24,744 nt of DNA from Chitinispirillaceae bacterium (GTDB lineage Bacteria; Fibrobacterota; Chitinivibrionia; Chitinivibrionales; Chitinispirillaceae). The position numbers were made by a program, and so were the translations under genes. This document shows, piece after piece, positions 2,548 through 17,661 of the stretch (position 1 is the stretch's first letter; each line of letters starts with the position of its first letter). The notes beneath the pieces are model-generated. The model worked only from the letters and a program-made list of their open reading frames with translations. It was not told the DNA's origin and did no database searches. Where the stretch lies: the NCBI GenBank assembly GCA_016926315.1, contig JAFGOU010000286.1, forward strand, positions 1-24,744, given 5' to 3'.

Positions 2548-4371
2548 CTACTTCCGGTAGCTGTCCGCGCCGATGCCGAGGTCGCCCATTTTCTTGATGA
2601 GCCACTTGCGGTCGATGTCGAGCAGTTTTGCCGCACCTGAGACATTGCCGATTGTTTTTGTCAATGCGTTTTCTATAGCCTGCGCTTCGGCCTGCTCGCG
2701 GGCGTCCCGGAGCGTGGACCCTGCGGCCATTGCGGGAACGGAGGCGGACGCGGACTGGTTCAGCATAAGGTCCTCGGGACCGATGCGGCTTCCCTGGGAG
2801 ACGAGAATGGCTTTCTGTATCACATTTTCAAGCTCCCTGATATTTCCGGGCCAGCTGTGTCCGGCCAGAACATTCCGGGCAGGCGGGGAAAGCGTCTTGA
2901 TCTGGAGGCCGAACTGCAGGCAGTATTTTTTAAGGAAATATTCCGAAAGGAGCGCGATGTCAGGGCCCCTTTCGCGAAGCGGGGGCAGCAGCAGGGTGAG
3001 AACGTTCAGCCGGAAATAAAGGTCCTGCCTGAACCTGCCCTCTTTGACCTCCACCTCAAGTTTTTTATTGGTCGCCGCCACGATCCGCACATCGGCATGG
3101 AGCGTTTCGGTGCCGCCGATGCGCGTGAACTCTCCCTCCTGCAGCACGCGCAGAAGCTTTACCTGCAGGTGCTGCGGCATCTCCCCGATTTCATCGAGGA
3201 ACACCGTGCCTTTGTCGGCCGATTCGAACAGACCGATCTTGCGGCCCTGCGCGCCGGTAAACGCGCCCTTTTCATAGCCGAACAGTTCCGACTCGATAAG
3301 GTTTTCCGGCAGCGCCCCGCAGTTGATGGCCCGGAACGGTTTGTCCGCGCGGGCGGAAGCCTGGTGGACGTAACGCGCAACGAGCTCCTTGCCGGTGCCG
3401 GTCTCTCCAAGGACAAGCACCGGGGAATCGGTGCGGGCCACCTTGACGGCGAGCGCCATGAGGTTTTTCATCTCGTCGCTTTCATACAGCATGCCGCCGG
3501 AAGGAGCGAGCTGCTGCGCCTGGAGCCGCGCGATGGTTTCGCGCTGACGCCGGCGTTCATGGTCGTTGGAAAGGATCTCCGAAAAAAGCGGCAGCAGTTC
3601 GTCACAGAGGAGCCGCTCTTCCTCGTTAAAGGGGCGGTTTCCCTGCACCCGGTCCAGGTAGAGATAGCCGATCAGCGTCTCTTTTTCGCGCAAAGGCGCG
3701 CACAGCACCGATGCGATGCGGTTTTTTTCAAGCGACGTGGTGGAATCGCTTTTTACCTCCCAGTCGCTGTCGTGCATTACCACAGTGCGGGCCGCGTTTT
3801 TCGCCCAGTCGATCGCACGCTCGGAAAAACGGTCAAGCGCGCTCTTTTCAGGATAGCGTGCTATGGTTTTCCTGGTTCCGGTTGACGGGTCCTCTTCAAC
3901 AACACGCGCCGCGTCGCAGTGCAGTATCCGCGAAACACCGGCGACAAGACCGGTAAACACCTCTTCGTCGGAGTTACGCAGAAGCGCAACGACGCTCGCG
4001 ATCAGGTCGTGCAGGCCGCTCCCCGCAGCGCCGTCCGGTGCTGGCTTCGCCCCGGCCGTTGTTTCGGGAGCGATCTTCTTTTCGGCAAAAACATACTCCT
4101 CTTCACCGAGCTTCAGCAGGTCCCCGTGTTTGAGGGGCATGAAGCCGGCCGCCGGCCTGCCGCCGACCGTGACGGTAATCTTATCTGTCAATACCTGAAG
4201 CGCGTAGGAGCCTTCTTTGAACAGCAGGTGCGCGGCGACTTCGGGCATGGAACGTCCGGGCAGCTGGAGACGGCAGCCGGCCGACGCTCCCAGGGTGAAA
4301 ATACGCCCCGATACCGGCGTCTCCCTGCCGGTCGCCCGCTCGATGAGCATCGGATATCCGTTTTTTTTCAT
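2548..4371 (-). CDS. Sigma-54-dependent activator with FHA, GAF, AAA+ and Fis-type HTH domains
   Basis: A 607-aa bacterial enhancer-binding protein. Order of domains: FHA-like N-terminus (about 10-97), linker, GAF domain (about 120-270), sigma-54-interacting AAA+ domain (about 295-530) and a Fis-type helix-turn-helix (about 565-602). The AAA+ core is complete: Walker A GETGTGKE (322-329), the sigma-54-contacting GAFTGA loop (369-374) and Walker B VFLDEIGEM (390-398). It should therefore remodel sigma-54 RNA polymerase at -24/-12 promoters. Its start overlaps by 4 nt the stop of the Ser/Thr kinase gene upstream, pointing to kinase-controlled activity. The FHA part keeps a His (H48) but has GAS where GR is normal and lacks the usual Ser before xxH, so phosphothreonine binding may be altered. 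There is no receiver domain. Confidence 0.95.
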   Translation of the reverse strand: MKKNGYPMLIERATGRETPVSGRIFTLGASAGCRLQLPGRSMPEVAAHLLFKEGSYALQVLTDKITVTVGGRPAAGFMPLKHGDLLKLGEEEYVFAEKKIAPETTAGAKPAPDGAAGSGLHDLIASVVALLRNSDEEVFTGLVAGVSRILHCDAARVVEEDPSTGTRKTIARYPEKSALDRFSERAIDWAKNAARTVVMHDSDWEVKSDSTTSLEKNRIASVLCAPLREKETLIGYLYLDRVQGNRPFNEEERLLCDELLPLFSEILSNDHERRRQRETIARLQAQQLAPSGGMLYESDEMKNLMALAVKVARTDSPVLVLGETGTGKELVARYVHQASARADKPFRAINCGALPENLIESELFGYEKGAFTGAQGRKIGLFESADKGTVFLDEIGEMPQHLQVKLLRVLQEGEFTRIGGTETLHADVRIVAATNKKLEVEVKEGRFRQDLYFRLNVLTLLLPPLRERGPDIALLSEYFLKKYCLQFGLQIKTLSPPARNVLAGHSWPGNIRELENVIQKAILVSQGSRIGPEDLMLNQSASASVPAMAAGSTLRDAREQAEAQAIENALTKTIGNVSGAAKLLDIDRKWLIKKMGDLGIGADSYRK

Positions 4372-5756
4372 AATTTCCCGCTGTCCGTCAATGCGGGAAC
4401 GGGGACAACGACCGCCCTGGTCTGGAACGGGAGCAGGCGCACGCGCTCTCTCCAGCGCGGAACACCGTTGTCGTCGCTCCAGGACACGACATGGTCGCCA
4501 TAAGGCAGATCGACGCCTCTGGACAAGTGCGCCTTGTCGCTGATGACAGCCTCGTCTATCGCAAGAGCGCCGCCTCCCGGAATCTGCCTGATGACAAGCA
4601 TACCCGCGAGTTTATCGGAATGCCCAAGGATTTCTTTCATTTCGGCGTTCAGGTCGCCGGCTCCTTTCCCGGCATTGTCCGGTGCCGCGATCCGCGCACC
4701 CGCACCGGCGGCCGGATTGGCGATGGCGTCAACGAGGCCCGCACCGCTTTTCTTCCCGGAATAAAAAGCACCGGCCGCAAGCACGACCACTGCCGCCGCC
4801 GCGACGGCATAGCGCATGGCTGCGCCGAGCCGCCGCTTTCCGGAAAAGCGCGGAAAATCATCCATGAGACGGAGCGCTTCGGGATGCTCATCGTTCTCCT
4901 CGATGGCCTCGACCAGCAGCCAGTAAGCCTCGCGGCTCCTGCCCGCAAAGAGCAGCTGTTTTGCCGCACCGACGAGCCGGTCCGCGAGCTGGCGCGCGGT
5001 GAGCGCGGCTATGCAGCCGGGCCAGCACCCTGCGTCAGCACCTGCGGCCGCCGGTGCGGCGTTCCAGAGGGAAAGAGCCTCTTTTCCCGAGGACGGACGC
5101 ATCTGCGGCCGGGTGTCTGCCAGTTCCTTTACTGCCGCGGCCGACGGATGATTGGCGAGTATTTCGAACAGCACCCGGCCGGCGGAATAGACATCGGCGC
5201 GCATGAGGTCGACTGCGGAGCCGTATTCCCACACTTCGGGCGCCATATAGGCCGGAGTCCCCTTGACTGTCGAGGAAAACGAGTCCTTGCCGCTGATAAT
5301 ATTTTTTGTAAACCCGAAATCGACGAAATACAGACCCCCTTCCGGCGTCAGCACGATGTTCGAAGGCTTGAGGTCGCGGTGCGCGAAGCCGAGGCCGTGC
5401 AGGCGCGCGAGCGCTTCCAGGAAACGCTTTGCCAGGCAGAGCCGCTCGTCTCCGGAAAGACCGCCGTCCTGTAGCACGGCGTCGAGGGAAATGCCCCGTA
5501 TCCACTCCATGACGATGCAGACTCTTGAACGCCATTCGAAAGCGTCGTACACGGCCGGGACGCACTCCAGGCGTATCTGCGACTGTATTTTCGCTTCTTT
5601 CAGTTTTTCCCGGCGCCGGTCGCGGTCTTTTTCAAAAAAGAGCTTGATCGCCGCAGGGCGGTCGATCCCTGACTGGAAGACGCGGTAGACGGATGCGAAT
5701 GCGCCCGAGCCGGCCGCGACGGGATGGGAAAAGCCCTTGGGAAGCCGCGGAATCAT
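4368..5756 (-). CDS. Membrane-anchored eukaryotic-like Ser/Thr protein kinase
   Basis: A 462-aa Hanks-type kinase. Residues 10-205 carry a glycine-rich loop (AGSGAFASVY, 15-24), catalytic Lys38 in AIKLF, the loop HRDLKPSN (126-133), metal-binding DFG (146-148) and MAPE (171-174). Thr163 and Thr167 in the activation segment are candidate autophosphorylation sites. After a TPR-like helical pair (about 268-301) comes one transmembrane helix (about 314-334), then about 125 residues expected outside the cytoplasm that include a PEGA-like beta segment near the end. All catalytic residues are present, so it is likely active. It is coupled by 4-nt overlaps to the TPR lipoprotein gene upstream (5753-5756) and the FHA/sigma-54 activator downstream (4368-4371). 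That arrangement suggests envelope sensing by the tail and signalling to the activator. Confidence 0.93.
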   Translation of the reverse strand: MIPRLPKGFSHPVAAGSGAFASVYRVFQSGIDRPAAIKLFFEKDRDRRREKLKEAKIQSQIRLECVPAVYDAFEWRSRVCIVMEWIRGISLDAVLQDGGLSGDERLCLAKRFLEALARLHGLGFAHRDLKPSNIVLTPEGGLYFVDFGFTKNIISGKDSFSSTVKGTPAYMAPEVWEYGSAVDLMRADVYSAGRVLFEILANHPSAAAVKELADTRPQMRPSSGKEALSLWNAAPAAAGADAGCWPGCIAALTARQLADRLVGAAKQLLFAGRSREAYWLLVEAIEENDEHPEALRLMDDFPRFSGKRRLGAAMRYAVAAAAVVVLAAGAFYSGKKSGAGLVDAIANPAAGAGARIAAPDNAGKGAGDLNAEMKEILGHSDKLAGMLVIRQIPGGGALAIDEAVISDKAHLSRGVDLPYGDHVVSWSDDNGVPRWRERVRLLPFQTRAVVVPVPALTDSGKL

Positions 5757-6457
5757 TTCTGCCGTCCGGTTTCAGAGGCGTCCCGTTTTTTCTTCTCGGC
5801 GCGGGCGAACCAGTAAAGCGCCGTCTCGTCTGACGGGGCGAGCTTCAGGCATCGCAGCCAGAAATCCCGCGCTTCCTCGAAAGCGCCGGAACTCCAGGCG
5901 GCCATGCCGAGGTTGAAAAGCACCGGCGCATTGGCGGAGTCGAGGGACAGCGCCCTGGCGAACAGCGTCCTGGACTTTTCAAGCTCCCCCTTCCGGAAAT
6001 AGATGATCCCGGCGGCATTGAGCGGTCCGGCGCTGCGCGGCGCGTATCCTATGGCGCGGGTGAGCGCCTCGAGCGCGGCGATGGTGTCTTTTTTGTCAAG
6101 AAGCTGCCGGGCGCGCTCCGACCACGCCTGGGACAGAAGCGGGTTCAGGGCCTCGCCGGCAGAGAGCGTCCGCGCCGCCTCGAGATGCATGCAGGCGTCC
6201 CGCCACGACAGGGTATCGCCGGTATTGCCGGCGGCACGCTGGAGCAGCGCCTTTCCCATGCCGAGCCGCGCGCCGTAACTGCCGGGGTCGTCGGCAAGCG
6301 CTTTGCCGAAAAAACGCACCGCTCCCTCGCAGTCGCCGAGCCTGAGGCAGACGGCCCCTTTTTCAAGGGGCGACTGCGAGCAGGTGACTGCCGCGGCGAG
6401 CAGCACCGCGGTCAAAACAAGGATCTTTTTCTCTGAATTTATTTTTTGTTTCCGCAT
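5753..6457 (-). CDS. TPR-repeat lipoprotein
   Basis: A 234-aa protein with an N-terminal hydrophobic stretch and lipobox AAVTC (Cys26). At least four tetratricopeptide-type helix pairs follow, for example LRLGDCEGAVRFFGKALADD (about 37-56), ALEALTRAIGYAP, KGELEKSRTLFARALSLD and GAFEEARDFWLRCLKLAP. TPRs are protein-protein interaction scaffolds, and a lipid-anchored one would sit at the periplasmic face of a membrane. The last codons overlap the start of the kinase gene, so the two are co-translated; the TPRs might contact the kinase's extracytoplasmic tail or the TPR/barrel protein encoded just upstream (16-nt gap). The ATG at 6457 is preceded by a modest GGAAG. Confidence 0.85.
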   Translation of the reverse strand: MRKQKINSEKKILVLTAVLLAAAVTCSQSPLEKGAVCLRLGDCEGAVRFFGKALADDPGSYGARLGMGKALLQRAAGNTGDTLSWRDACMHLEAARTLSAGEALNPLLSQAWSERARQLLDKKDTIAALEALTRAIGYAPRSAGPLNAAGIIYFRKGELEKSRTLFARALSLDSANAPVLFNLGMAAWSSGAFEEARDFWLRCLKLAPSDETALYWFARAEKKKRDASETGRQK

Positions 6458-6473
6458 TATTCGTCTTTCTTCC

Positions 6474-8087
6474 TTACAGCGCCTCCGGCACGTCTTCCCT
6501 GCCGAAAGACACCGCGAAGAACAGGCCGACCCCGTACAGCAGATCCTTTATCTCCGCCGGCAGTTCGTCCCTCAGCGATGACCAGTACTTATTGACATAT
6601 GCGTTCAGCCGCAGCGTACCCGTCTTCCCCACCCGCCATTTAAGCGCCGCATCGCCGCCCATACCGAAATCGATTCGCCGTTTGGAACAGCTGGCCATCT
6701 CGAGCGGACCGCCGTAGGTCTCGCCGCTGGTAATGTTTGAAAACTCTTCGACGGAATAATATCTGCCGTCGCCGTTTGAGAACGCGAGCATGGTATCGCC
6801 CGGCGCCGCCGATGAAATCCACTCATGCTCCTTCAGGTAATAGTATGCCATACCTTTCAACGTTCCTTCAACAGAAAATTTTGCAGACAGCTTGTGCATG
6901 ATGCCGACCGAGGGAGTCGCGGCCGCGAAACTCTCGGGCGCGCGGATGAAACCCTGCGGCACCGCGGCTTCGCGGTATGCGGCGAGAAGTTCGCGCTGCT
7001 GAACCGGGGTAAGCGGGCCGGACGGAATCGGAACGGTCTGGGTACAGGTGGCGTCGGTATAGTGCGTTACCGGATTTGCGGCCGGGGCCTCGATGTACAT
7101 CACCGGCACCGGGGTCGAAAGGTCGCCGGTCAGAAAACAGGACACGAGCGGCGACAATGCAATGTCGGTAGCCGCTGAAAGCCGGCAGGAAAAGTAGTTC
7201 ATGAGCAGGACGCTCTGAAACGATCCCGCCTCTTCACGCGAGCTTTCCATGATACCCATGAGCGAGCTGTAGGCCAGCCAGCGGTTTCCCTGGCGCAGGC
7301 GCGACAGCGATACCGTGTTCTGCGTTGAAACGCCGCCGAAGATGCTGCTCCTCTGCTGCAGCGAATACCCGATCGAAAAAAAACGCCACAGGTTCGTAAC
7401 GCCGAGCGAGATCCCCAGGGCATGATTGAGCGAATCGAGCCGCAGGTTGCCCTGTTCGATGCCGTTCGAAAAGTTGTAGCTTATCGCCGGCTGCAGCGCC
7501 GTTCCCTTCACAAAAGGGAAATACCACGACGATTTGAGCGTGATATCCTGCCCGGGGTTGACGACGCGGCCCAGGACCGGTACGCTCTTTCTGAAAGGAT
7601 ACGGCTGTTCTTCAAAGATGTTCCTCACGTTCAGCCCGGACCAGTTCATGACCGAAAAACGGGGAGCGAGCCGGTTTTCCCCGGCGCGCGTCTCCCGAAG
7701 GGGCTGCCGGGATTGAAGAAACTGAAGGGAGTCAACGATCTCGCCTGCCTCTTCTGCCCATCCGAGGGTCGCGTAAATAACATAACGCTGCTGCAAAAGG
7801 GGAATGGTCAGGCCGCCGGCGTTCTTACGCCGGGCCGCGATATTCAGGGCGAGCGCCGTGTCCAGAACGCCGCGCCGGCAGTAGATCTCGGCCCAGAAAT
7901 AGTACAGGCTGTCCTCGGAAAGTCCCCGTGAAAACGCCGTTTGAAAATATTCGTAGGCGGCATCGTACCGCCCGGCGTCAAGCGCTTCGGTGACATTTGA
8001 TACGCCCGTTCCCGCAAAGGAAACCGCTGCAAGCACCATCAACAGGAAAAACGGGCGGCATGCGCGCCGCCCTGTGAGAAATCTCAT
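6474..8087 (-). CDS. Secreted TPR protein with putative outer-membrane beta-barrel C-terminus
   Basis: A 537-aa exported protein with a Sec signal peptide (basic start, hydrophobic core to about residue 25, AAVSFAG). Residues about 28-135 contain TPR-like helices (DAGRYDAAYEYFQTAFSRGL; RRGVLDTALALNIAARR). The remaining 400 residues alternate polar and hydrophobic positions with many Ser/Tyr/Asn, like antiparallel strands of an outer-membrane barrel or usher-type protein (for example SIGYSLQQRSSIFGGVSTQN and LRLNAYVNKYWSSLRDEL), ending in strand-like GVGLFFAVSFG. No exact family is recognised. RBS-like GGAG lies 8 nt before the ATG. It heads the cassette that continues with the TPR lipoprotein, kinase and sigma-54 activator, so it is a candidate envelope component monitored or controlled by that system. 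Confidence 0.72.
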   Translation of the reverse strand: MRFLTGRRACRPFFLLMVLAAVSFAGTGVSNVTEALDAGRYDAAYEYFQTAFSRGLSEDSLYYFWAEIYCRRGVLDTALALNIAARRKNAGGLTIPLLQQRYVIYATLGWAEEAGEIVDSLQFLQSRQPLRETRAGENRLAPRFSVMNWSGLNVRNIFEEQPYPFRKSVPVLGRVVNPGQDITLKSSWYFPFVKGTALQPAISYNFSNGIEQGNLRLDSLNHALGISLGVTNLWRFFSIGYSLQQRSSIFGGVSTQNTVSLSRLRQGNRWLAYSSLMGIMESSREEAGSFQSVLLMNYFSCRLSAATDIALSPLVSCFLTGDLSTPVPVMYIEAPAANPVTHYTDATCTQTVPIPSGPLTPVQQRELLAAYREAAVPQGFIRAPESFAAATPSVGIMHKLSAKFSVEGTLKGMAYYYLKEHEWISSAAPGDTMLAFSNGDGRYYSVEEFSNITSGETYGGPLEMASCSKRRIDFGMGGDAALKWRVGKTGTLRLNAYVNKYWSSLRDELPAEIKDLLYGVGLFFAVSFGREDVPEAL

Positions 8088-8126
8088 GTTTCAATCTCCA
8101 GTCCGGAATAATCTTCTTCAATGCTT

Positions 8127-8152
8127 CATATAAAACGCCGACTTTCAGCGTT
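8127..8152 (-). terminator. Likely intrinsic terminator after the Ig-repeat lipoprotein gene
   Basis: Read on the minus strand, AACGCTGA-AAG-TCGGCGTT forms an 8-bp stem (one G-U pair) with a 3-nt loop, followed directly by TTATAT. It lies 14 nt past the stop of the Ig lipoprotein gene and would separate that transcript from the TPR/kinase cassette starting at 8087. Confidence 0.55.
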
Positions 8153-8165
8153 ACCATCCCGCTTT

Positions 8166-9311
8166 CTATGGATTTACCGTAAGGGTCGCCGGATATGACG
8201 TCACGCTCCCCTTGGTGTTAGAAACGATAACGGTATATACTCCCGCATCGGCGGCCGCAACGGCGGCGATACTGTAAGTCGCGTCGGTCGCCAGAGGAAT
8301 ATCCACGCCGTCCTTCTGCCACTGATATCCGGGGTCAGGTTGTCCGGTGGCCACGACGGTAAAACTGGCCGGATCACCTTCACTGACGGTCTGCGACAGC
8401 GGCTGGGTCGTAATCTCCGGCGTTCCCGGCGTAACATCGTTTACCGTAAGAACCGCCGCAACCGAGGTGTCGGCTCCCAGCGAATTCCACACAATGACCG
8501 TATAGTTACCAGCATCCAAAAGCTGAACTGAAAAGATGGTATACGTCGCGCTTGTCGCTGAAAGTATGTCAACACCGTCTTTCTGCCACTGGTAAGCGGG
8601 CGCGGGATTGGCTGATGCCGCCACAAAGAAACTCACCGGCTCGCCGCGGTTTACCGTGGCCGACACCGGCTGGGTCGTGATCTCCGGAACCGAGAGATCG
8701 TTAACTATAAGCGTTGCCGCATTCGAGGTATCGGCCCCGAGCCTGTTCGTGACGATGACCGAGTAGCTTCCCGCATCCGTTGTCTGCGCGGCCGCAATGA
8801 ACAACGTGTCGTTGTCAGGACTGCCAAGCGCGACGCCGTCCTTGAGCCACTGGTACGAAGGAGCGGGGTGCCCGGTCGCGGCCACAAAAAATATGACAGG
8901 ATTGCCTTCATCAATGGTCTGCGACACCGGCTGGGTCGTGATCTCCGGAGCGGCAAACGGGTTGACCGTCAGCGCCGCCCCTGCCGAAGTGTCGGCCCCC
9001 AGCGTGTTCGTAACGATGACCGAGTAGTTTCCCGCATCCGTTGTCTGCGCGGCCGCAATGAACAACGTGTCGTTATCAGGACTGCCAAGCGCGATGCCGT
9101 CCTTGAGCCACTGGTACGAAGGAGCGGGGTCTCCGGTTGCGGCCACATAAAACATGACCGGACCGCCTTCATCGACCGTCTGCGACTCCGGCTGGGTCGT
9201 GATCTCCGGGGAACGGAGTGTCGAGTTTGCAGGATTATCACCGCAGGCGAAATACAACGCCGCTACTGCCGTTAAAAAAAATGACGCCCGGATACTTGAT
9301 TTTTTAAACAT
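8166..9311 (-). CDS. Lipoprotein with four tandem Ig-like domains
   Basis: A 381-aa lipoprotein: hydrophobic leader, lipobox LYFAC (Cys23), then GDNPANS. It is almost entirely four Ig-like (I-set/Ig_3 type) repeats of about 85-88 aa. Each opens PEITTQP, carries a central YQW-x-KDG with the core Trp, then DAGxYxVIVxN and an ALTVN-type strand ending. The canonical DxGxY tyrosine-corner motif is kept in all four, while the Ig disulphide cysteines are absent, as is usual in bacterial versions. Such proteins display adhesive or spacer modules at the cell surface. Repeats 1 and 2 are nearly identical even in DNA. A good Shine-Dalgarno (AAGGAGA) precedes the ATG. It probably belongs to the transcript from 10385, with a gap of about 50 nt from the gene upstream. 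Confidence 0.88.
   Translation of the reverse strand: MFKKSSIRASFFLTAVAALYFACGDNPANSTLRSPEITTQPESQTVDEGGPVMFYVAATGDPAPSYQWLKDGIALGSPDNDTLFIAAAQTTDAGNYSVIVTNTLGADTSAGAALTVNPFAAPEITTQPVSQTIDEGNPVIFFVAATGHPAPSYQWLKDGVALGSPDNDTLFIAAAQTTDAGSYSVIVTNRLGADTSNAATLIVNDLSVPEITTQPVSATVNRGEPVSFFVAASANPAPAYQWQKDGVDILSATSATYTIFSVQLLDAGNYTVIVWNSLGADTSVAAVLTVNDVTPGTPEITTQPLSQTVSEGDPASFTVVATGQPDPGYQWQKDGVDIPLATDATYSIAAVAAADAGVYTVIVSNTKGSVTSYPATLTVNP
8701..9212 (-). repeat. Two near-identical 261-bp DNA repeats inside the Ig lipoprotein gene
   Basis: The stretch 8701-8951 matches 8962-9212 at an offset of 261 bp (87 codons), with near-identity from about 8742 onward; for example the 20-mer CCGCATCCGTTGTCTGCGCG occurs in both. 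The other two Ig repeats are clearly diverged. This indicates a recent in-frame duplication or gene conversion. Confidence 0.85.
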
Positions 9312-9360
9312 GAACCCGTCTCCTTTTTAAAATGCGGCGTGCGCAGGGGGATATTTTCGG

Positions 9361-9768
9361 TCAACGCCCCCGCTGTATCTCCTTCAATTCAATGTCACGT
9401 TCATTCTTCCTTTTTTCCATCTCCTGAATAACATTTTCAATCTGCAGGCGGAGTTCGTTCGATAATTCATCGGTCAGCCTGTTTTTCTGTTCCTGCGCGC
9501 TCTTCTCCAACCCTTCGGCCTGCCTTGCCGAATCAATTTTAGCCGTTTTAAACTGTTTTTTCTCTGTAAGCATGTGCGCCGAATCAAGTTTCTGCCTCAT
9601 CTCCCCGGGAAGGGAGATCATGATCTCATTATATATCGCGTCGATTTTGCCCCCGGTGTCGTTCCGCGTCGCTTTTTTTTCGACGCCCTCTTCGTCCGCA
9701 AATACCGCTCCGGCGGCGATCGTCATTGCCGCGGCTGCGGCCCAGAAGAACATCCGGTTTTTCTTCAT
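9361..9768 (-). CDS. Small periplasmic charged helical (coiled-coil-like) protein
   Basis: A 135-aa exported protein with a Sec signal peptide (MKKNRMFFW, then an Ala-rich core and AVFADEE). The mature part is highly charged and predicted helical, with Glu/Lys/Arg-rich heptad-like stretches (for example LEKSAQEQKNRLTDELSNEL and IENVIQEMEKRKNERDIELK). No catalytic motif is visible. I chose the ATG at 9768 rather than an upstream start at 9924 in the same frame because the signal peptide begins here and GAGGCGG stands in front of it; the extension looks like non-coding sequence in translation. The gene follows a second coiled-coil gene (ending at 9921) and precedes the Ig lipoprotein gene. The function is unknown; a chaperone-like or envelope-spacer role is only a guess. 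Confidence 0.75.
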   Translation of the reverse strand: MKKNRMFFWAAAAAMTIAAGAVFADEEGVEKKATRNDTGGKIDAIYNEIMISLPGEMRQKLDSAHMLTEKKQFKTAKIDSARQAEGLEKSAQEQKNRLTDELSNELRLQIENVIQEMEKRKNERDIELKEIQRGR

Positions 9769-9920
9769 ACATCCGCCTCTCTTGAAAGCATGCAAGGGGA
9801 AGTTTGACCTTCCCCCTGCTTCGCGCAGCAACCTGCAGGAACAGGCCGGACTGGAGATCGTGAGCCTGTGCCGTACCTGCTGCAGCGCCATGCCAACCAC
9901 CCTCCACCCCTTCAAAATAT

Positions 9921-10385
9921 TCAATTGCCACCCCTGTCAGGGCCGCCCTGCGCCTTTATACGCGCCTGCAGCTCCTTCATCTTGCGCATTTTTTCCTGCA
10001 CCTCGGCCATGACCTGCCGCTTTGCCTGCTCAACTTCCTTGTTGATCTGCGCCGAGGCCTTGTTAAGTTCTTTCATGCCTGCCTTGATCTGAGCCTGCAC
10101 CCGTGCGCGCTCCTGTTCCATGATCGCTTTACGCTCAGCTGCATTTTTGTCCTGCAGCCTTGTCTGGAGCGCCAGCGCGGCCTGCTGCGCTTTTTCACAC
10201 TCCGGCGTCGCCTGTTCCATGGCCAGTGACAGCTTCTCCCTAAGCTGCACACGCAGCTGTTCAAGGTTCCCGGACTGCGCCTGCGTCTGCACCCCTTCCT
10301 GAATGCGGGTCTGGGTCATCACCGTGTCCTGCGCCATCGCGGCCGAAACCACCCCGGCCAGCATAAGTACCGCGAGCTTCTTCAT
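9921..10385 (-). CDS. Small periplasmic coiled-coil protein
   Basis: A 154-aa protein with a clear signal peptide (MKKLAVLMLAGVVSAAMA then QD, cleavage near residue 18) and a very strong Shine-Dalgarno (AAGGAGG, 4 nt before the ATG). The mature chain is almost pure amphipathic helix rich in Gln, Glu, Lys and Ala (LEQLRVQLREKLSLAMEQAT; KEVEQAKRQVMAEVQEKMRK) and ends PDRGGN. It has a single Cys. General character resembles Skp/OmpH-like periplasmic helices, but no family is recognised. It is the first gene of the minus-strand unit 10385-8166 and sits just behind a sigma-54-like promoter (10454-10469). The shared size, charge and export with the next gene suggest they form a pair. Confidence 0.8.
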   Translation of the reverse strand: MKKLAVLMLAGVVSAAMAQDTVMTQTRIQEGVQTQAQSGNLEQLRVQLREKLSLAMEQATPECEKAQQAALALQTRLQDKNAAERKAIMEQERARVQAQIKAGMKELNKASAQINKEVEQAKRQVMAEVQEKMRKMKELQARIKAQGGPDRGGN

Positions 10386-10453
10386 ACGACCTCCTTGAAA
10401 AGAATTGATGTTTGTTCCAGTCCACCACTGCCTTGGCTCTGCTGTTGTAAGAC

Positions 10454-10469
10454 ATCAATCCCTGTGCCA
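10454..10469 (-). promoter_or_regulatory. Candidate sigma-54 (-24/-12) promoter for the coiled-coil/Ig lipoprotein unit
   Basis: On the minus strand the sequence is TGGCACAGGGATTGAT. The -24 element TGGCAC is a perfect consensus match; the -12 element is TTGAT instead of TTGC(A/T), with correct spacing. Transcription would start near 10443, leaving a leader of about 58 nt before the ATG at 10385. The C-to-A change in the -12 GC lowers confidence. Confidence 0.45.
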
Positions 10470-10543
10470 ATTGTACTAATGTTTTGATTTTAATGCAAAT
10501 AAGATTTCGGGGCCTTTGATCCTTTTTTTTTAAGTCCTTTTCT

Positions 10544-10581
10544 GGGGTCAATCAACCATGCCTTCGGGGTCAATTCACCCC
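10544..10581. repeat. Repeated GGGGTCAAT operator-like element in the divergent region
   Basis: GGGGTCAATCAACC (10544-10557) is repeated as GGGGTCAATTCACCCC (10566-10581) at a 22-bp offset, about two helical turns; the second copy is also palindromic (GGGGT-N6-ACCCC). It lies between two oppositely directed sigma-54-type promoters, 74-110 bp from each, where activator-binding enhancers usually sit. An alternative reading is the relic of an insertion-sequence end with multiple terminal repeats. Confidence 0.5.
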
Positions 10582-10653
10582 ACATTTTTGAACCTTTACG
10601 TTTGAAACTTCGGAAATATCAAAATTCGACATGAAAATACAACCGGTTCCGGT

Positions 10654-10669
10654 CGGCATACCATTTGCA
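10654..10669 (+). promoter_or_regulatory. Candidate sigma-54 (-24/-12) promoter for the T9SS-type secreted protein gene
   Basis: CGGCATACCATTTGCA matches the consensus TGGCAC-N5-TTGC(A/T) at the invariant GG and GC with exactly 10 nt between them, and has a full TTGCA -12 box. Transcription would start near 10680, about 80 nt before the ATG at 10762. No comparable -35/-10 pair is seen closer to the gene. Confidence 0.6.
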
Positions 10670-10761
10670 AGTACCAGTAGACAATCGGTCATACCGGCAT
10701 ATTTGCCGTACTTGATCGTGGAGGGACAACTTTTCCAACAACCTTATCTTGGGGGGGTCTT

Positions 10762-11652
10762 ATGCGTAAAGGTCTGGGCGCGGGCATGATGCTCGCCATG
10801 CTGTTCTGTTTTTCCGTCAATGCGGCCACCATCACCGGCACGGTGACCGACCAATCAACATCCAATCCTGTTGCCGGAGCCACGCTCATTCTGCTGAGCG
10901 GCACCACGCCGATGGATACCGTTACGACCAATGCAAGCGGTGTCTATACATTCTCAGATGTCGCGGTAGGCAGCTATACCATTAATGTGTCCGCAACCGG
11001 GTACGTGTCTGCAGTAGAGCCGGCCGCTATCTCCGGGACAAACCAGACCCTTACCCGCAATATCGCCCTCGTACCTGTCAGTGGAGCCTCGTACGGCGCC
11101 ATCGGCGGGACTGTCACTGACCGTGACTCCCTGGATTCGCTGAGCGGCGTCACAATCACTCTCCGCCAGGGCGTACGGGGGACCGGCGGGGTGGTCTGGA
11201 CAGACCTTGCCACCACAACCTCATCGGCCAGCGGCTGGTTTTTCTTTGACAGCGTGCTGGTGAATACCAACCAGAGGCCTTATTCTCTCGTGTTTGCCAT
11301 GCTCGGATATCTTCCGGATACGTCAGCGGAAATCATGGTGGACTCGGGGGTGATTGACACGGTCGATATGGCTTTAATCCCGGGGACCGCTGTTGTCTGG
11401 AACGGGAGCAGCCGCGCAGCGAATCCGGCGGTTTCGATCGCGGTCAATGATCAGGGGACTCTCCTGGTCAGGAACGCATCCCGATCCGGCACGCTCTCGC
11501 TTTATACCGCCAGCGGCCGCATGGTGCTCAGGAAGAATTTCCGGGCGGGACAGAACCGGATAGTAGCGCCGGGCCTTGCCGGCAACGCCATGATCGCAGT
11601 ACTGAGCGGAAACGGTTTCCGCGTGGTTGAAAGGCTGTCGCTTTGCAGATAA
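10762..11652 (+). CDS. Secreted protein with two carboxypeptidase-regulatory-like domains and T9SS-like C-terminal domain
   Basis: A 296-aa exported protein. The signal peptide runs to about residue 21 (FCFSVNAA). Two beta-sandwich repeats of the CarboxypepD_reg type follow, roughly 22-105 (TITGTVTDQSTSNPVAGATL, ASGVYTFSDVAVGSYTI) and 112-205 (GGTVTDRDSLDSLSGVTITL, GWFFFDSVL). The last 75 residues (GTLLVRNASRSGTLSLYTAS, then GRMVLRKNF and GFRVVERLSL) look like the C-terminal sorting domain used by type IX secretion in FCB bacteria. It is thus predicted to be exported through the outer membrane and attached or released at the surface. A G-run RBS (GGGGGGG) precedes the ATG, and a sigma-54-like promoter lies about 100 bp upstream. 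A lipoprotein gene follows after a strong hairpin. Confidence 0.78.
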   Translation: MRKGLGAGMMLAMLFCFSVNAATITGTVTDQSTSNPVAGATLILLSGTTPMDTVTTNASGVYTFSDVAVGSYTINVSATGYVSAVEPAAISGTNQTLTRNIALVPVSGASYGAIGGTVTDRDSLDSLSGVTITLRQGVRGTGGVVWTDLATTTSSASGWFFFDSVLVNTNQRPYSLVFAMLGYLPDTSAEIMVDSGVIDTVDMALIPGTAVVWNGSSRAANPAVSIAVNDQGTLLVRNASRSGTLSLYTASGRMVLRKNFRAGQNRIVAPGLAGNAMIAVLSGNGFRVVERLSLCR

Positions 11653-11658
11653 CTACCG

Positions 11659-11687
11659 GACGGGGCAGTTTTATTAACTGCCCCGTC
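11659..11687 (+). terminator. Strong 12-bp hairpin between the two plus-strand envelope genes
   Basis: GACGGGGCAGTT (11659-11670), loop TTATT, then AACTGCCCCGTC (11676-11687): a perfect 12-bp stem starting 7 nt after the stop codon at 11652. No U-run follows, so it may act as a partial terminator or a 3'-stabilising RNA structure that lowers expression of the downstream lipoprotein gene. Confidence 0.5.
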
Positions 11688-11717
11688 TCCGATTCCGCTA
11701 CAAAAAGGACACTCAAA

Positions 11718-12764
11718 ATGAGAACATCGCTAAAGCCCGTCGCTGTGCTTGCCGTGTGTGCCGCACTCGTCATGGCCGGCTGCTCGAATTCCCCGACGTC
11801 AAACACCGGAAACGGGCTCGGGAACACCTCCAACGGCTACTTTTCCATAACCGAACCCGGCTACATGGAGTCTGTCGCGCTCAACTCCGCCGTACCGGTC
11901 GCGTGGACTTCGCTGGAGACAGCGCCCGACTCGTTCGTGGTGATAAGCCTGTACAAGGGCGACGTTCTCGTTCATACCTATCCTTCTACCTCGAATACGG
12001 GCGCCGATACCGTGAACATCATGTCCGCGTACACGGGCTCGGGAACGGATTACCGGCTGCGGATAGCGTACTATTCTGATTCAACGAAATACGACATGAG
12101 TCACTATTTCTCTCTCTATTCCCTCTTTTCCGGCACCATTACCATAACAAACCCGTCCGCCTATGCTATATGGAACGCGGACTCGTCGTATACCATTCAA
12201 TGGACCTATACCGGCACGCCCGGATATTACGCGACCATCAGCCTGTATAATAATGCGGACCTCGTTCATACGTTCACGATTACCGCGGAAATAATCACCG
12301 GAAGCCACGTTGCGTTCTTCCCTGCAAACCTGGTGAGCGGAAGCACCTATCGCGTCATGATCTCCAGCAACGACGACAACGGCATCTGCGCGTACAGCGG
12401 GTACTTCACCATTAACGGGGTGACTCCTGACGCGTACGAAAGTGACAACTCGGCAGCTTCTGCCAAGGCCATCACCACCGACAGCGTCGAGCAGAGCCGC
12501 AACCTGACCGTCAATGATACGGACTGGGTGAGCTTCAGCGCGGACAGCGGCACCACCTATACAATTGAGACTTTCGGCGCCACCAACACCGTCCTGTCGC
12601 TGTATGGACCCGACGGCGTGACGCTGATCGCCGCCGACAACAACAGCGGAACCGGTTCCAATGCGATGATCTCGTGGGCATGCCCGGTGAGCGGCACCTA
12701 TTACTTCACCGTCACGGGGTTCAACGGCGCTACCGGAGCGTATACGGTTTCAGTGCGGTTATAA
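11718..12764 (+). CDS. Lipoprotein with Kre9/KNH-like repeats and C-terminal PPC domain
   Basis: A 348-aa SPII lipoprotein: MRTSLKP, hydrophobic core, lipobox VMAGC (Cys22), then a Ser/Asn/Gly/Thr-rich linker. Two beta-sandwich segments (about 38-125 starting YFSITEPGYMESV, and 137-235 starting GTITITNPSAYAIWN with IQWTYTGTPG) resemble the Kre9/KNH-type Ser-Thr-rich domain. Residues about 240-348 form a PPC (bacterial pre-peptidase C-terminal) domain with DAYESDNS, DTDWVSFSADSGTTYTIET and SGTYYFTVTG. The start at 11718 is chosen for the signal peptide and for AAAAAGGAC 7 nt upstream; an in-frame extension to 11643 would overlap the previous gene and destroy the leader. It probably acts at the cell surface as a binding protein. 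It shares a transcript with, or is hairpin-attenuated from, the upstream T9SS-type protein. Confidence 0.82.
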   Translation: MRTSLKPVAVLAVCAALVMAGCSNSPTSNTGNGLGNTSNGYFSITEPGYMESVALNSAVPVAWTSLETAPDSFVVISLYKGDVLVHTYPSTSNTGADTVNIMSAYTGSGTDYRLRIAYYSDSTKYDMSHYFSLYSLFSGTITITNPSAYAIWNADSSYTIQWTYTGTPGYYATISLYNNADLVHTFTITAEIITGSHVAFFPANLVSGSTYRVMISSNDDNGICAYSGYFTINGVTPDAYESDNSAASAKAITTDSVEQSRNLTVNDTDWVSFSADSGTTYTIETFGATNTVLSLYGPDGVTLIAADNNSGTGSNAMISWACPVSGTYYFTVTGFNGATGAYTVSVRL

Positions 12765-12839
12765 CGTATCCTCGGAAGGACATTTTCCGATATGCCGCCA
12801 TCCATGGCCGGCCTTCATTGACCGGAAGGCGAGGAAACC

Positions 12840-13050
12840 CTAATACCACATTCCAATGAAATATATCCTCGAATCGTCATTGGAAAAAATCGAGGCATAG
12901 CACAGGAACCCCGGTGGAAAATAGGACGGCGTAATGTCCCTGTTATCGCTGCCGTCCGCGTTCATCATGTAGATGCGGTATTTCCCTGCCCCGTTGATCG
13001 CGGAGACCAGATATATGAGATCCTTGTGCCGGGATTGCGGGGAAATGCCT
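12840..13050 (-). pseudogene. Remnant of a TolB-type PD40 beta-propeller gene
   Basis: In minus-strand translation, HKDLIYLVSAINGAGKYRIY then MMNADGSDNRDIT and FSNDDSRIYFIG, ending in MWY and a TAG stop. This closely resembles a PD40 (WD40-like TolB propeller) blade of the form IYxMNADGSxxxxIT...SPDGSRIxF. Only about 65-70 codons are left: the C-terminal blade with its natural stop is present, but no signal peptide or earlier blades precede it. The homology stops abruptly near 13050, where the DUF5674 gene begins on the other strand. The frame stays open for some distance antisense to that gene, but that part does not look like a propeller. It is best read as the 3' stump of a deleted envelope protein gene. 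Confidence 0.5.
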
Positions 13051-13086
13051 TGACGCGGCAGTCCATTGAATGGTAGATTTCCTTTC

Positions 13087-13431
13087 ATGAAAATCATCAA
13101 GGAAAACATTGCCCTGCCGGAATTGATCAAAATGGCGGAAAGCATGTATGGAAATCTGGTGAAGGCCGTGGTGGACATAAGACGTGAAATAATGGCGGTT
13201 GATGCCGAACTGCATTCCGATGAAGAAGCGGCCCTTCTTGAAAGCGGATCGAGGCAGGAAGACCTCTGGGGAATAAATATCTACACCGGGCTTGACCGGA
13301 ACGCGCCCGATTTCATCGAATTTGATTCACTCATCAATCTTCGGCCAAGGCAGAATAACCGGAGCCGCGGGGTCGAAGACCCGGCAGTCAGGGAAAAAAT
13401 AACCGCCTTAGTCAGAAAGCGGGTGGCATGA
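13087..13431 (+). CDS. DUF5674 family protein
   Basis: A 114-aa cytoplasmic protein that matches my knowledge of the DUF5674 family along its whole length: MKIIKEN start, LVKAVVDIRREIMAVDAELH, then EDLWGINIYTG, EFDSLINLRP, and the strongly conserved NRSRGVEDP near the C-terminus. Function is unknown; the conserved charged and His residues and small size suggest an enzyme-like or nucleic-acid-linked fold but prove nothing. The ATG at 13087 is preferred over a TTG at 13066 because the family begins with MKII. Its stop overlaps the start of the next gene (ATGA, 13428-13431), so the two are translated as a unit. Confidence 0.82.
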   Translation: MKIIKENIALPELIKMAESMYGNLVKAVVDIRREIMAVDAELHSDEEAALLESGSRQEDLWGINIYTGLDRNAPDFIEFDSLINLRPRQNNRSRGVEDPAVREKITALVRKRVA

Positions 13432-13778
13432 CCTTCCAGCACAAAGAGCTCGCGGCCGGACGATGGAAGAAGCTGCCTTTTTTAGAGCAGATGGCCAACG
13501 TCGGCGGCGAAATCGAACGGACGCTCAACTGGAAGAGAAAAGGCAATGAAGATTACAGCAGACGGGCTTTTGAACGCGCGCTGGAACTGCTGGATCTGAC
13601 TATCGGCGACGAGAAAAACAGGCGCAGATTGAAAGAGATAGTCAGGGCCCGGGAGGCCCTCGCCGACCATTTTGCCTTTGATAACGCCTATCGCTCGACC
13701 GATTCGTCCTGGCAGAAATATTTTTACTGTTACGCTTTCGCCGCGCAGAACGGACGGCACCACGGAGAAAACCCATAA
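13428..13778 (+). CDS. Small helical protein, translationally coupled partner of DUF5674
   Basis: A 116-aa predicted all-helical cytoplasmic protein. Visible features: HKELAAGRWKKLPFLEQMAN, then GGEIERTLNWKRKGNEDYSR, AFERALELLDLTI, and a Tyr/Phe-rich end (WQKYFYCYAFAAQ). From memory, similar small proteins occur beside DUF5674 genes in other genomes, but I can name no function or Pfam family. The 4-nt overlap with DUF5674 implies fixed stoichiometry, as in a two-component complex (a toxin-antitoxin pair is one possibility, without direct evidence). It is followed at 13788 by the convergent phospholipase-D-like gene. Confidence 0.78.
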   Translation: MTFQHKELAAGRWKKLPFLEQMANVGGEIERTLNWKRKGNEDYSRRAFERALELLDLTIGDEKNRRRLKEIVRAREALADHFAFDNAYRSTDSSWQKYFYCYAFAAQNGRHHGENP

Positions 13779-13787
13779 AGCAGTCTT

Positions 13788-14399
13788 TCACCTCGGCCCG
13801 CGCTCATCGAGAATGTCCCGGTAATCCGCGCAGTATTTCTTCCGTCCGCACTCTGTGCAATGCCGGCCCATCCAGATGCGGTCGAACTGGTCCATGATTG
13901 TTTCGATCAGATGCCTGTCGGTCGTGACGAACCCCGACTCGAAATTCCTGTTCCTGACGCTTTTCGCGCCCATGCCTGCGCCGGTAAGATTGGCGCTGCC
14001 GCTGTAGGCGAATTTGCCGTCGGCCACCACCGCCTTGAAATGAACGCGAGGGCAGAGGATCCGCTCCATCCCGCCGATCAGACCGGGAAAGCGGTCGAAA
14101 TCCCTGCGGAACGCCGGTCCCGGTTCACTAGCGTGCAGCAGCCGTATCGACACACCTGCCGAGGCAAGGTCGGCAAGGAGTTCAAGAAACGGGACCATGG
14201 TCCTGCCTTTATGAATGTAAAGGTCCTTGAGGTCTGAGGTCGCCAGCCAGAGAAATTTGGTGCATTGAGGGACGGCTTTGAGTATGACCTTCTCGTAGAT
14301 CTCGCGGTCGGTGACGAAGGCGGTGTTTTCCATGGTCTTGGTGCGACTCAATATACTCGCTTCTTTTCCCTGCGTCAAACGGGACTGCTCCGCGTCCAC
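13788..14399 (-). CDS. Phospholipase D-like protein with a single HKD motif and C-terminal Cys cluster
   Basis: A 203-aa protein with one HKD active-site motif: H120-F-K122-x4-D127, followed by the usual GSxN (134-137) and an Asn/Glu-rich segment (RNRNFESGF, about 150-158). Single-HKD proteins such as Nuc/BfiI-type nucleases act as dimers, so a nuclease or phosphodiesterase is likely. No signal peptide is apparent, arguing for a cytoplasmic role. The C-terminus adds a possible metal site HCTECGRKKYC (180-190), which is unusual for the family. The GTG at 14399 has AGGAG 8 nt upstream; an ATG at 14333 is an alternative start that would keep the whole domain. It converges with the DUF5674 pair and follows the small SAP-like gene on the same strand. 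Confidence 0.75.
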   Translation of the reverse strand: MDAEQSRLTQGKEASILSRTKTMENTAFVTDREIYEKVILKAVPQCTKFLWLATSDLKDLYIHKGRTMVPFLELLADLASAGVSIRLLHASEPGPAFRRDFDRFPGLIGGMERILCPRVHFKAVVADGKFAYSGSANLTGAGMGAKSVRNRNFESGFVTTDRHLIETIMDQFDRIWMGRHCTECGRKKYCADYRDILDERGPR

Positions 14400-14457
14400 G
14401 GCGGACTCTCCTGCCGTCGCGGAAAAGCCGTTAGCCCGATAGAAGTGTCAACCGCGG

Positions 14458-14649
14458 CTACTCCTGCTCCCCAAGGCACTCATCACGCCAGCAGCAATCC
14501 GTTTCCGGGCAATCAACGACGCCGGTAGAATAACACGGCTTGCCGCCTTCTTCAATCTGAATCAAACGGATCAATTCGGCCTTTTCCTCATGATCCATAT
14601 CCTTAATCCCCCTTTTTTTTGCACGCGATACGATTTTGGCCCGTTTCAT
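14458..14649 (-). CDS. Small SAP-like domain protein with C-terminal Cys motif
   Basis: A 63-aa protein. The N-terminal half (IVSRAKKRGIKDMDHEEKAE, then LIRLIQIEEGG) fits the SAP-type helix-extension-helix pattern of small bacterial proteins, where the usual layout is a LxxxAKxxGIKxxxxxKxELIRxIQxxEG core followed by PCFGT...CxxxxCxWRxxCL. Here the second half keeps that layout as KPCYSTGVVDCPETDCCWRD then ECL, with five Cys. SAP domains often bind DNA, and the Cys may bind a metal. AGAGGGTGAT provides an RBS before the ATG at 14649. It is the likely upstream neighbour in a unit with the phospholipase-D-like gene (58-nt gap). Confidence 0.75.
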   Translation of the reverse strand: MKRAKIVSRAKKRGIKDMDHEEKAELIRLIQIEEGGKPCYSTGVVDCPETDCCWRDECLGEQE

Positions 14650-14783
14650 ACATCACCCTCTTTTCAAATAGGCAAAAAGGCGTTTAATTTCCCGTGTGAA
14701 TCGTCGGGATATCGGGTAAACGATATGTGCAGTCCCCTTAAATTCATCGACGCACGAACAACCGAATGCCGAACCGCCGGCCG

Positions 14784-15209
14784 TCATTTCTTTTTCTTCT
14801 TCTTTTCCTTTTTTATGTTATCGCTTTTTTTTACCGTCTCCTGGCTGCTTGAATGCTTTTTACTTTTTCCCCTCACCTTATCACTCCCCTGGAACTCTAA
14901 AAAATTCCCCCAGATCAGACATTTCGGGCAAATCCGAACGGAATCGCCGTTCTTCAGATACAACTTATATCCATAGCTGTCGTGAAACCATACCGAGGAG
15001 CAAGTATCGCTGCAACTGCTTTTCCCCTTCTGCGCCTTCTTATAATCAATAATGATGCCGACCGGATCCACTGCGATACAAAACCATTTCGGCGACGCGG
15101 CCCGGGCCGTTGAAAGGGACCTTTTTTGCTCGCCATCGGCAGCCATCATGCAACAGGCGATGATAACAGCCGCTATTTTCCCGCTATTCCCGATTTTTCG
15201 CACGTTCAT
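14784..15209 (-). CDS. Putative lipoprotein with paired Cys motifs and poly-Lys tail
   Basis: A 141-aa protein not assigned to any family. A basic start and hydrophobic core end in VIIACC (Cys19/Cys20), a plausible lipobox. The mature part has two Cys pairs, CSDTC (66-70) and CPKC (94-97), flanking an aromatic stretch (VWFHDSYGYKLYLKNGD), which suggests a metal or disulphide site. The C-terminus is extremely Lys/Ser-rich and ends with seven consecutive Lys. GGGGGTTTAATT precedes the ATG at 15209, and a TTGACA (-35-like, minus strand, 15263-15268) lies upstream without a convincing -10. It is on the same strand as the PRC-barrel genes, 122 nt after them. Confidence 0.6.
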   Translation of the reverse strand: MNVRKIGNSGKIAAVIIACCMMAADGEQKRSLSTARAASPKWFCIAVDPVGIIIDYKKAQKGKSSCSDTCSSVWFHDSYGYKLYLKNGDSVRICPKCLIWGNFLEFQGSDKVRGKSKKHSSSQETVKKSDNIKKEKKKKKK

Positions 15210-15331
15210 AATTAAACCCCCTTTCCAAGGAAGACTTTAAAACAGCTGGTAGAATATATGCTTGTCAAACCGCGTTATCCTGATTGCAGATTCCATGTAT
15301 ACGAACAAAAACGGCCTTTTCCGCAGCCGGT

Positions 15332-16069
15332 TTACTCACCGATCGCTTCCCTGCCCGACAGAGACTGATAATGGTCAAGAAAATCCTCGTAACTGACATT
15401 TACATGAACTTTGGGATCGAACGCCGGGCAGTGTGTCATATAGTCGTTTCTGCACTCGAGGAACACGGTCTTTTTTATCCATTCTATATGGTCAACCCAG
15501 AAAGCGACGAGCAGCCTTATCTCCTGTTTTAAGCTGGCGTCCGGACTCACGAGAAGAAACTTGATATCCCAGAACCGGTCGTCAAAAACCATGTCCTCCA
15601 GTCGGTATTTTATGCCGTCTGCTGTCGCTGCATTACAGGTTAAAAATGTGCGGACAGAGCAGAAACGATCGTTCTGATTTTTCCCATCCTCCCGCTCATT
15701 CATTGAAGAAACAGGGGGAAATATCACCGGCCCGAAATGCCGGTTATAACTGTCCAGCGATTGTGAAATATGAAAAAGCAATTCGGAACTCTCTCTCTGC
15801 TGCATGCTGACGGGGGTGGATGAACTCCGGTCGGGACAACGGCAAATCTCATCTTTAGTCAATTTGACCTCAAGGTTTCCGTCGCCGGATGGCGATGATG
15901 CAAGGGGTGAGACAAGCACCTCCTTTGCAGCAGCGCCGGCAGACAATTCTATCACCAGGTAGCGAATCCGCCACGACCGTTCGTCAAAGTATAAATCGGA
16001 CAATCTGCCGATTGTTCCGTCTACGGCCGCGATCGGCATATTGATAACCTCACTGGCTCTCCGCATCAT
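15332..16069 (-). CDS. PRC-barrel domain protein (two PRC-like modules), copy 2
   Basis: A 245-aa soluble protein with two PRC-barrel-like modules, about 5-80 (INMPIAAVDGTIGRLSDLYF, then RSWRIRYLVIEL) and about 135-215 (DGIKYRLEDMVFDDRFWDIK). The second module is degenerate. It ends with a conserved tail DPKVHVNVSYEDFLDHY. PRC-barrels are small beta-barrels that bind RNA or protein; stand-alone two-module versions of about 250 aa with a D-x-x-G-x-h-x-D-h-h-F-D pattern are common in environmental bacteria and have no assigned role. It is paralogous to the gene immediately upstream (47-nt gap). Two adjacent ATGs exist at the start (16069 and 16066). Confidence 0.82.
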   Translation of the reverse strand: MMRRASEVINMPIAAVDGTIGRLSDLYFDERSWRIRYLVIELSAGAAAKEVLVSPLASSPSGDGNLEVKLTKDEICRCPDRSSSTPVSMQQRESSELLFHISQSLDSYNRHFGPVIFPPVSSMNEREDGKNQNDRFCSVRTFLTCNAATADGIKYRLEDMVFDDRFWDIKFLLVSPDASLKQEIRLLVAFWVDHIEWIKKTVFLECRNDYMTHCPAFDPKVHVNVSYEDFLDHYQSLSGREAIGE

Positions 16070-16116
16070 AAAAAGACCCTGCTGCCTTAAAAATTGCCTG
16101 ACTATCCTGACTATAT

Positions 16117-16863: not shown

Positions 16864-16881
16864 ATCGTGCCTGCACCTCGA

Positions 16882-17433: not shown

Positions 17434-17478
17434 TTCTATCTCCTTTCGCATATACAAGTTATCCGCACGCTTATCAAA

Positions 17479-17494
17479 AGCAATCTTTATGCCA
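17479..17494 (-). promoter_or_regulatory. Candidate sigma-54 (-24/-12) promoter for the Pal/PRC-barrel unit
   Basis: The minus strand reads TGGCATAAAGATTGCT, matching TGGCAC-N5-TTGC(A/T) in all but one defined base outside the variable spacer, with GG-N10-GC exact. Transcription would start near 17468, giving a leader of about 35 nt that includes the strong Shine-Dalgarno of the Pal gene. This is the best sigma-54 match in the window. Confidence 0.65.
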
Positions 17495-17621
17495 ACAGCA
17501 CAGGCTTGCTTTTAAAGAAAAGTGCGATCAATCAGTCCAGCAATAAGCGGCATATTTGGTAAAGGGCGGCAGCGAAACGGAATGATATCGTCAAACGCTG
17601 ATAACTCCGGCTGTGAACCGT

Positions 17622-17661
17622 GGGACAAATGTCCCGGAAAGAGACTAATGTCCTTGAAAGA
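17622..17661. repeat. Operator-like palindrome plus direct repeat between Pal and MscS
   Basis: GGGACA-AA-TGTCCC (17622-17635) is a perfect inverted repeat. AATGTCCCGGAAAGA (17628-17642) recurs as AATGTCCTTGAAAGA (17647-17661), with two mismatches and a 19-bp offset. The array sits between oppositely directed sigma-54-type promoters, about 70-130 bp from each, a fitting place for an activator-binding enhancer. Confidence 0.5.

Follow-up and report, generated by a model that had tools for sequence, protein, structure and literature searches.

A conserved envelope protein, lipoprotein, Ser/Thr kinase and sigma-54 activator cassette in part of the Fibrobacterota

Introduction

How might a Ser/Thr kinase in the bacterial membrane reach sigma-54-dependent transcription? 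To our knowledge this route is largely inferred, and the question is raised by a group of genes in a 24,744-nucleotide stretch of DNA from a Chitinispirillaceae bacterium of the Fibrobacterota (contig JAFGOU010000286.1; hereafter the window). They encode a predicted outer-membrane protein (OMP), a tetratricopeptide-repeat (TPR) lipoprotein (LPP), a membrane Ser/Thr kinase (KIN) and a sigma-54 activator (EBP), which a preliminary description read as a phosphothreonine-based route from the envelope to sigma-54 promoters. From a comparison of gene order, promoter, palindrome, lost phosphothreonine-contacting residues and intact kinase motifs in related genomes, we consider it probable that these genes belong to a cassette, present in part of the phylum, that is self-contained, responds to the envelope and positively regulates its own expression. 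Such a cassette would make the kinase-to-sigma-54 question accessible in one compact unit whose promoter and enhancer are predicted, and would offer a natural example of an FHA domain retained for its fold after loss of the phosphate-reading residues.

Results

The four open reading frames (ORFs) are confirmed on the minus strand as OMP (6474–8087), LPP (5753–6457), KIN (4368–5756) and EBP (2548–4371), and the last three are indeed chained by ATGA overlaps, at LPP–KIN and KIN–EBP; OMP and LPP are spaced by 16 bp. To place them among relatives, the kinase family was collected by protein search (best 120 of 2394 matches), and among the matches listed all ten that carry an organism name are Chitinispirillaceae, Chitinivibrionales or Fibrobacteres. 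An alignment of 33 kinases (A1), searched at an E value of 1e-60 or better against 167 genomes from the phylum to which G001, a Fibrobacter metagenome-assembled genome (MAG), belongs, returned 27 kinase copies in 22 genomes. The neighbourhoods of these copies (L001 being one) and the window make up the 28 loci compared here, whose ORFs were clustered by BLASTP. KIN was recognised in 28 loci, LPP in 27, EBP in 26 and OMP in 25, together with three further families, SEC (23), CC2 (19) and CC1 (13, in L127 on the opposite strand). The co-conservation expected of a functional unit was found, in that OMP, LPP, KIN and EBP follow one another in this order on one strand in 25 of the 28 loci, which is every locus with an OMP. 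In L135 and L139 the contig ends within EBP, and L131, one of the loci without the full order, lies on a contig that begins at the kinase. Genomes with several cassettes (G019, G020, G022 and G023) have all four genes in eight of nine copies.

The idea of a four-gene unit holds insofar as the four are conserved together, but the cassette is larger and the four genes as a complete unit are rejected, given the frequencies of CC1, CC2 and, usually, SEC upstream. In the window, the first gene is CC1 (9921–10385, minus strand), a small secreted coiled-coil-like protein, followed by CC2 (9361–9771, minus; start set at the Met of MKKNRMFFW), a small secreted helical protein, and by a protein with four Ig-repeat matches (8166–9311, minus) in the slot taken elsewhere by SEC. 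The latter is a secreted protein of ~240 amino acids, usually found between the small secreted genes and OMP; no PDB relative appeared at E 1, two members gave no NCBIfam match, and assignment to a known fold was dropped, as PsbP appeared at E 0.023 only, in one of the two members tried.

The association extends beyond gene order. Pairwise distances of KIN, EBP, LPP and OMP correlate with rho values of 0.61–0.75 (leaving out two truncated EBPs and an additional SEC copy), the highest of 200 permutations reaching 0.45; correlations of this kind between protein sequences point to co-inheritance, not to contact. The FHA–GAF part of EBP is present in 21 of the 22 kinase genomes vs 5 of the 145 others. 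As a yardstick, among 79 other kinase loci (L002–L080) none has the FHA–GAF region in the neighbouring DNA and three have a sigma-54 AAA domain there; in a contig scan with general kinase motifs, L001 was the sole clear family member among the at least 80 loci listed, and the family may also occur outside the phylum. One genome carries a second, divergent cassette (L205, G037:C527) with the order OMP-LPP-KIN-EBP-SEC, in which SEC follows EBP and the kinase is 25% identical. More distant relatives have LPP-KIN-EBP (L206), KIN-EBP (L204) or an EBP without a kinase match (L203).

OMP has a signal-peptide-like N-terminus and, in the predicted model, TPR-like helices followed by a closed barrel, as would be expected of an outer-membrane beta-barrel protein; the mean pLDDT of 72.8, for a model built from 11 sequences, makes this a moderately confident assignment. 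A role as an exopolysaccharide exporter, suggested by the top Foldseek matches PelB and BcsC, was dropped because a second look ranked plain porins and FadL first. LPP is a TPR protein with the lipobox AVTC (Cys26). A strict lipobox scan was passed by 18 of 27 LPP proteins, that of the window included; several of the failures have a Cys within a hydrophobic leader, in a form outside the accepted pattern. In 21 of 27 loci, an ATGA or GTGA contains the LPP stop codon.

KIN matches Pkinase at 6e-35 (residues 16–211), and the Lys, Glu, HRD, Asn, DFG and APE motifs are all present, which identifies it from its sequence as a Hanks-type Ser/Thr kinase. Invariant in the 33 kinases are K38, E54, D128, K130, N133, D146, E174 and the activation-loop S159, which we take to have the roles assigned to such residues. 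The kinase domain is followed by juxtamembrane TPR-like helices (weak; a TPR_14 signal ahead of the membrane segment in 12 of 33 members), one hydrophobic segment (~310–334) and a tail of ~128 residues with an invariant LPF close to its end, presumed to be extracytoplasmic. A PEGA domain in this tail was considered and is absent among 25 of the 38 families listed for the 33 members.

We then asked where the cassette's output might lie. A hand-set -24/-12 matrix scanned around the first gene finds the sigma-54 site TTGGCACAGGGATTGAT (10454–10470, minus) before CC1, whose score is matched by none of 483 other windows of this stretch. For 23 of the 28 loci (L001, L117, L121, L126 and L131 were excluded for having no or too little upstream DNA) the same question could be asked, and in 16 of them the candidate site before the first gene beats 95% of equal-length windows of the same locus. 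The -12 element takes the unusual form TTGAT or TTGAA in seven loci, including the window, and TTGTT in L137. RpoN was found in 22 of 22 kinase genomes. The preliminary description had placed the likely outputs, with -24/-12 promoters, 2.3 kb away; a conserved cassette leading from the envelope to sigma-54, with its likely output at the promoter 2.3 kb upstream, is supported.

Upstream of the sigma-54 sites lies an 18-bp palindrome of the form TGKRGTGAA-WNNACYMCA. Its best copy in the window, UAS1 (CGGGGTCAATTCACCCCA, 10565–10582), precedes the -24 site by ~103 bp, and a second, UAS2, is at 10543–10560. In a held-out test on 18 loci with a sigma-54 site, each locus was scanned with a matrix from whose training it had been left out (the window over its first 13,000 bases). 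In 15 loci the locus-wide best match fell in the upstream stretch, which measured 260 bp or less (chance expectation per locus, ~260 in 8,000–19,000); in the others the best match of that stretch ranked second (L124, L140) or tenth (L125). Over the whole 24.7-kb window, a matrix built without it gives UAS1 (21.2) and UAS2 (17.0) ranks 1 and 2; the best scores of 20 shuffled windows ranged from 8.6 to 18.2, so that UAS1 exceeds all of them and one reaches UAS2. Of the ten loci outside the held-out test, L129 has two strong palindromes between CC1 and CC2. A simple scan flags the palindrome as a terminator, a reading rejected because the position upstream of sigma-54 sites recurs. As a side observation, LPP of L001 is preceded by a -24/-12-like site and a weak palindrome.

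Across the 167 genomes the exact pattern occurs at 23 sites in 14 of the 22 kinase genomes vs 9 sites in 9 of the 145 others (Fisher p 1.9e-9). The reversed pattern, used as a control, occurs in 0 of 22 and 15 of 145, respectively, which puts the nine non-kinase genomes at chance level; one of them, G033, contains part of an EBP and a contig with CC1-CC2-SEC, and its assembly is probably split. G001, which is without EBP, has no exact palindrome. Since the pattern was derived from cassette sites, off-cassette sites were also counted alone, giving 7 of 22 vs 9 of 145 (p 0.0014), or 6 of 22 without the repeat in G005 (p 0.006). The 23 kinase-genome sites divide into 11 at the cassette and 12 elsewhere. 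Four of the latter (G022:C152, G023:C107 and G036:C98 twice) are each followed by a -24/-12 site and then an additional CC1 gene, and another (G039:C397) stands before a gene for a secreted coiled-coil protein that is CC1-like but has no BLAST match to CC1. In G005, near-identical perfect palindromes lie beside three copies of a 264-amino-acid ORF (L171, L172 and L173), and palindrome and ORF probably belong together to a repeat or mobile element.

The remaining step is the activator itself. The window EBP (P0001) has a GAF domain, a sigma-54 AAA+ domain with GAFTGA and a Fis-type helix-turn-helix, as bacterial enhancer-binding proteins do. It has no Response_reg domain and its partner is a Ser/Thr kinase, which sets it apart from two-component NtrC proteins. 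Its N-terminal region (residues ~1–100, about 4072–4371, minus strand) is not accepted as FHA by Pfam; the predicted structure is nevertheless an FHA sandwich (pLDDT 88.7; TM-score 0.79 to EmbR), EmbR ranks first both by sequence profile (2e-6) and by structure, and the model makes it clear that the fold is kept. The second-best profile match, the FHA domain of KIF13B (3fm8), shares its IGS...LPEH pattern.

In canonical FHA domains the phosphothreonine is contacted by an Arg, a Ser and an Asn, which the EmbR alignment places at residues 29, 43 and 65 of the window EBP. Among 52 EBPs (the window and 51 of the 120 relatives listed), the Arg of the GR motif is kept in one and the Asn in none, and the Ser is found in two, or in none at residue 45 if the invariant His guides the alignment; the phosphate pocket expected of a phosphothreonine reader is therefore missing in nearly all of them. 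The domain has invariant residues of its own (G28, H48 and G54, with T26 in 51 of 52), and with its fold kept together with such residues it is under selection for a role different from canonical phosphothreonine reading. Within the regulatory part, Ser/Thr conservation is highest at T26, T169, S183, T196, S213 and S221 (P0134 numbering). The activator proposed to carry an FHA domain thus has the fold but not the residues that read phosphothreonine.

Discussion

We propose the following mechanism of how the cassette might operate. The OMP barrel with its TPR-like helices and the TPR lipoprotein would report the state of the envelope or surface to the extracytoplasmic tail of KIN. The single-pass kinase would in turn control the co-translated EBP, probably via phosphorylation, and the FHA-fold domain would offer a docking surface that does not depend on phosphate. 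EBP would bind the 18-bp palindromes, often paired and about 60–195 bp upstream of the -24/-12 promoter, and together with sigma-54 switch on CC1-CC2-(SEC)-OMP-LPP-KIN-EBP, its own gene included, in positive feedback. Contact between OMP, LPP and kinase, phosphotransfer, binding of EBP to the palindrome, a single transcript and the nature of the signal are what we infer in this model. The palindrome is probably the activator's enhancer, and co-occurrence and adjacency suggest that EBP, rather than another activator, binds it. The main target is likely to be the cassette itself, and, read most simply, the activator is devoted to the operon that encodes it and to CC1 paralogues.

Several observations weigh against such an autoregulated cassette. 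The loci are kin, so their counts are not independent. L001 (Fibrobacter sp. MAG) and L126 consist of LPP-KIN, with OMP and EBP not found in the neighbourhood DNA, CC1 is recognised in fewer than half of the loci, the window is without SEC, and of 23 EBPs 17 have the exact GAFTGA and six a variant. No outstanding promoter precedes the first gene in 7 of the 23 loci tested (L115, L116, L128, L129, L135, L139 and L140), good -24/-12 sites lying farther upstream in L135 and L140. A good palindrome is missing from L116, L117, L121, L126, L128 and L131 (best 10.5 or less), of which L117, L121 and L131 start at contig ends, and the palindromes of L001, L115 and L139 are weak; the exact form is missing from 8 of the 22 kinase genomes. 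Moreover, the palindrome seed was taken by eye from all loci ahead of the held-out test, the 18 tested loci had been picked for their sigma-54 site, and the genome pattern was built from the same cassettes. Our confidence is lowered by the off-cassette p value, which is weaker than that of the full count, and 7 of the 12 off-cassette sites resemble chance or repeat. A broad regulon is unsupported, as these seven lie in ORFs, beside the repeated 264-amino-acid ORF (three) or, in G031, in a gap that has no explanation.

The relay as originally stated is a canonical one, in which KIN would autophosphorylate on Thr and the FHA domain of EBP would bind the phosphothreonine, as in PknH–EmbR. While the clear FHA fold, the top match to EmbR and the intact kinase motifs are what such a relay would have, the near-complete loss of the Arg, Ser and Asn is not, and the change from GR to GS is seen by eye in four divergent EBPs as well; we regard this relay as quite improbable, and the claim is not upheld. 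It could also be argued that KIN does not control EBP, with KIN having other targets, EBP sensing a small molecule via GAF and their linkage reflecting co-regulation only. The GAF domain fits this, as do the two LPP-KIN loci without EBP and L203, with its EBP but no kinase match; EBP nonetheless follows KIN in 26 of 28 loci, the distances of the two correlate (rho 0.75), and the divergent variants keep LPP-KIN-EBP (L205, L206) or KIN-EBP (L204), which renders independence of the pair unlikely.

The individual parts are known, and the pairing of a kinase with an FHA-bearing regulator has precedent. In Myxococcus xanthus, as reportedly described by Jelsbak in 2005, sigma-54 activators with an FHA domain are thought to connect Ser/Thr kinases to sigma-54. 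EBP resembles them in joining an FHA fold and a sigma-54 AAA domain in one protein; it differs in having GAF after FHA and in belonging to a recurring OMP–lipoprotein–kinase operon with its own promoter and palindromes, and may also differ in that its FHA domain is without the phosphothreonine residues. The envelope stress systems Cpx and Rcs combine an outer-membrane or lipoprotein sensor, an inner-membrane kinase, small secreted outputs and autoregulation through a histidine-kinase phosphorelay. The cassette would share the sensor, the membrane kinase, the secreted outputs and the autoregulation, but uses a Hanks-type Ser/Thr kinase and a sigma-54 activator with no such phosphorelay.

In Mycobacterium tuberculosis, the Ser/Thr kinase PknH controls the FHA-bearing transcription factor EmbR, whose phosphorylation by PknH needs conserved FHA residues (PMC4601284, in excerpt). 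The cassette likewise pairs a Ser/Thr kinase with an FHA-bearing regulator, and EmbR has its closest solved FHA domain, but EmbR is a SARP-family regulator rather than a sigma-54 activator, and the FHA residues needed for kinase interaction are those missing from the cassette EBP. The FHA domain of KIF13B, with the same fold and IGS...LPEH pattern, is reported to bind its partner without phosphorylation (PMC9203973, in excerpt); this eukaryotic kinesin is of unrelated function and a precedent only for phosphate-independent FHA docking. In line with the claim that no system of exactly this composition is known to have been described, none identical appeared in the titles and abstract openings of the literature matches listed, nor was a recurring six- to seven-gene unit, the palindrome or an FHA domain without phosphothreonine residues found described among them. 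It is conceivable, and we put this forward tentatively, that the cassette represents a distinct envelope signalling class, seen so far in one phylum, in which a transmembrane Ser/Thr kinase acts on a sigma-54 activator through an FHA domain converted to a phosphate-independent docking module, the circuit closing on its own secreted proteins and sensor operon. EBP is present in Chitinispirillum alkaliphilum (P0205) and Chitinispirillales bacterium ANBcel5 (P0191). With C. alkaliphilum strain ACht6-1 being an isolate (PMC4814513, in excerpt), the kinase-to-sigma-54 question is testable.

The DNA around the cassette holds further features. A divergent -24/-12-like site TCGGCATACCATTTGCA (10653–10669, plus strand) lies ~80 bp from UAS1, ahead of a gene for a secreted-looking protein with CarboxypepD_reg repeats (10762–11652, plus). 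Sharing the palindromes between opposed -24/-12 sites, this gene may be a further local target; no recurring family occupies its place in the relatives' loci. It is followed by a Kre9/PPC-domain protein (10762–12764, plus, for the two). The window's top -24/-12 site, TTGGCATAAAGATTGCT (17479–17495, minus), precedes an ORF of 191 amino acids (16882–17457, minus), near which an NtrC-type response regulator and a PAS-HAMP histidine kinase are encoded (18959–22001, minus).

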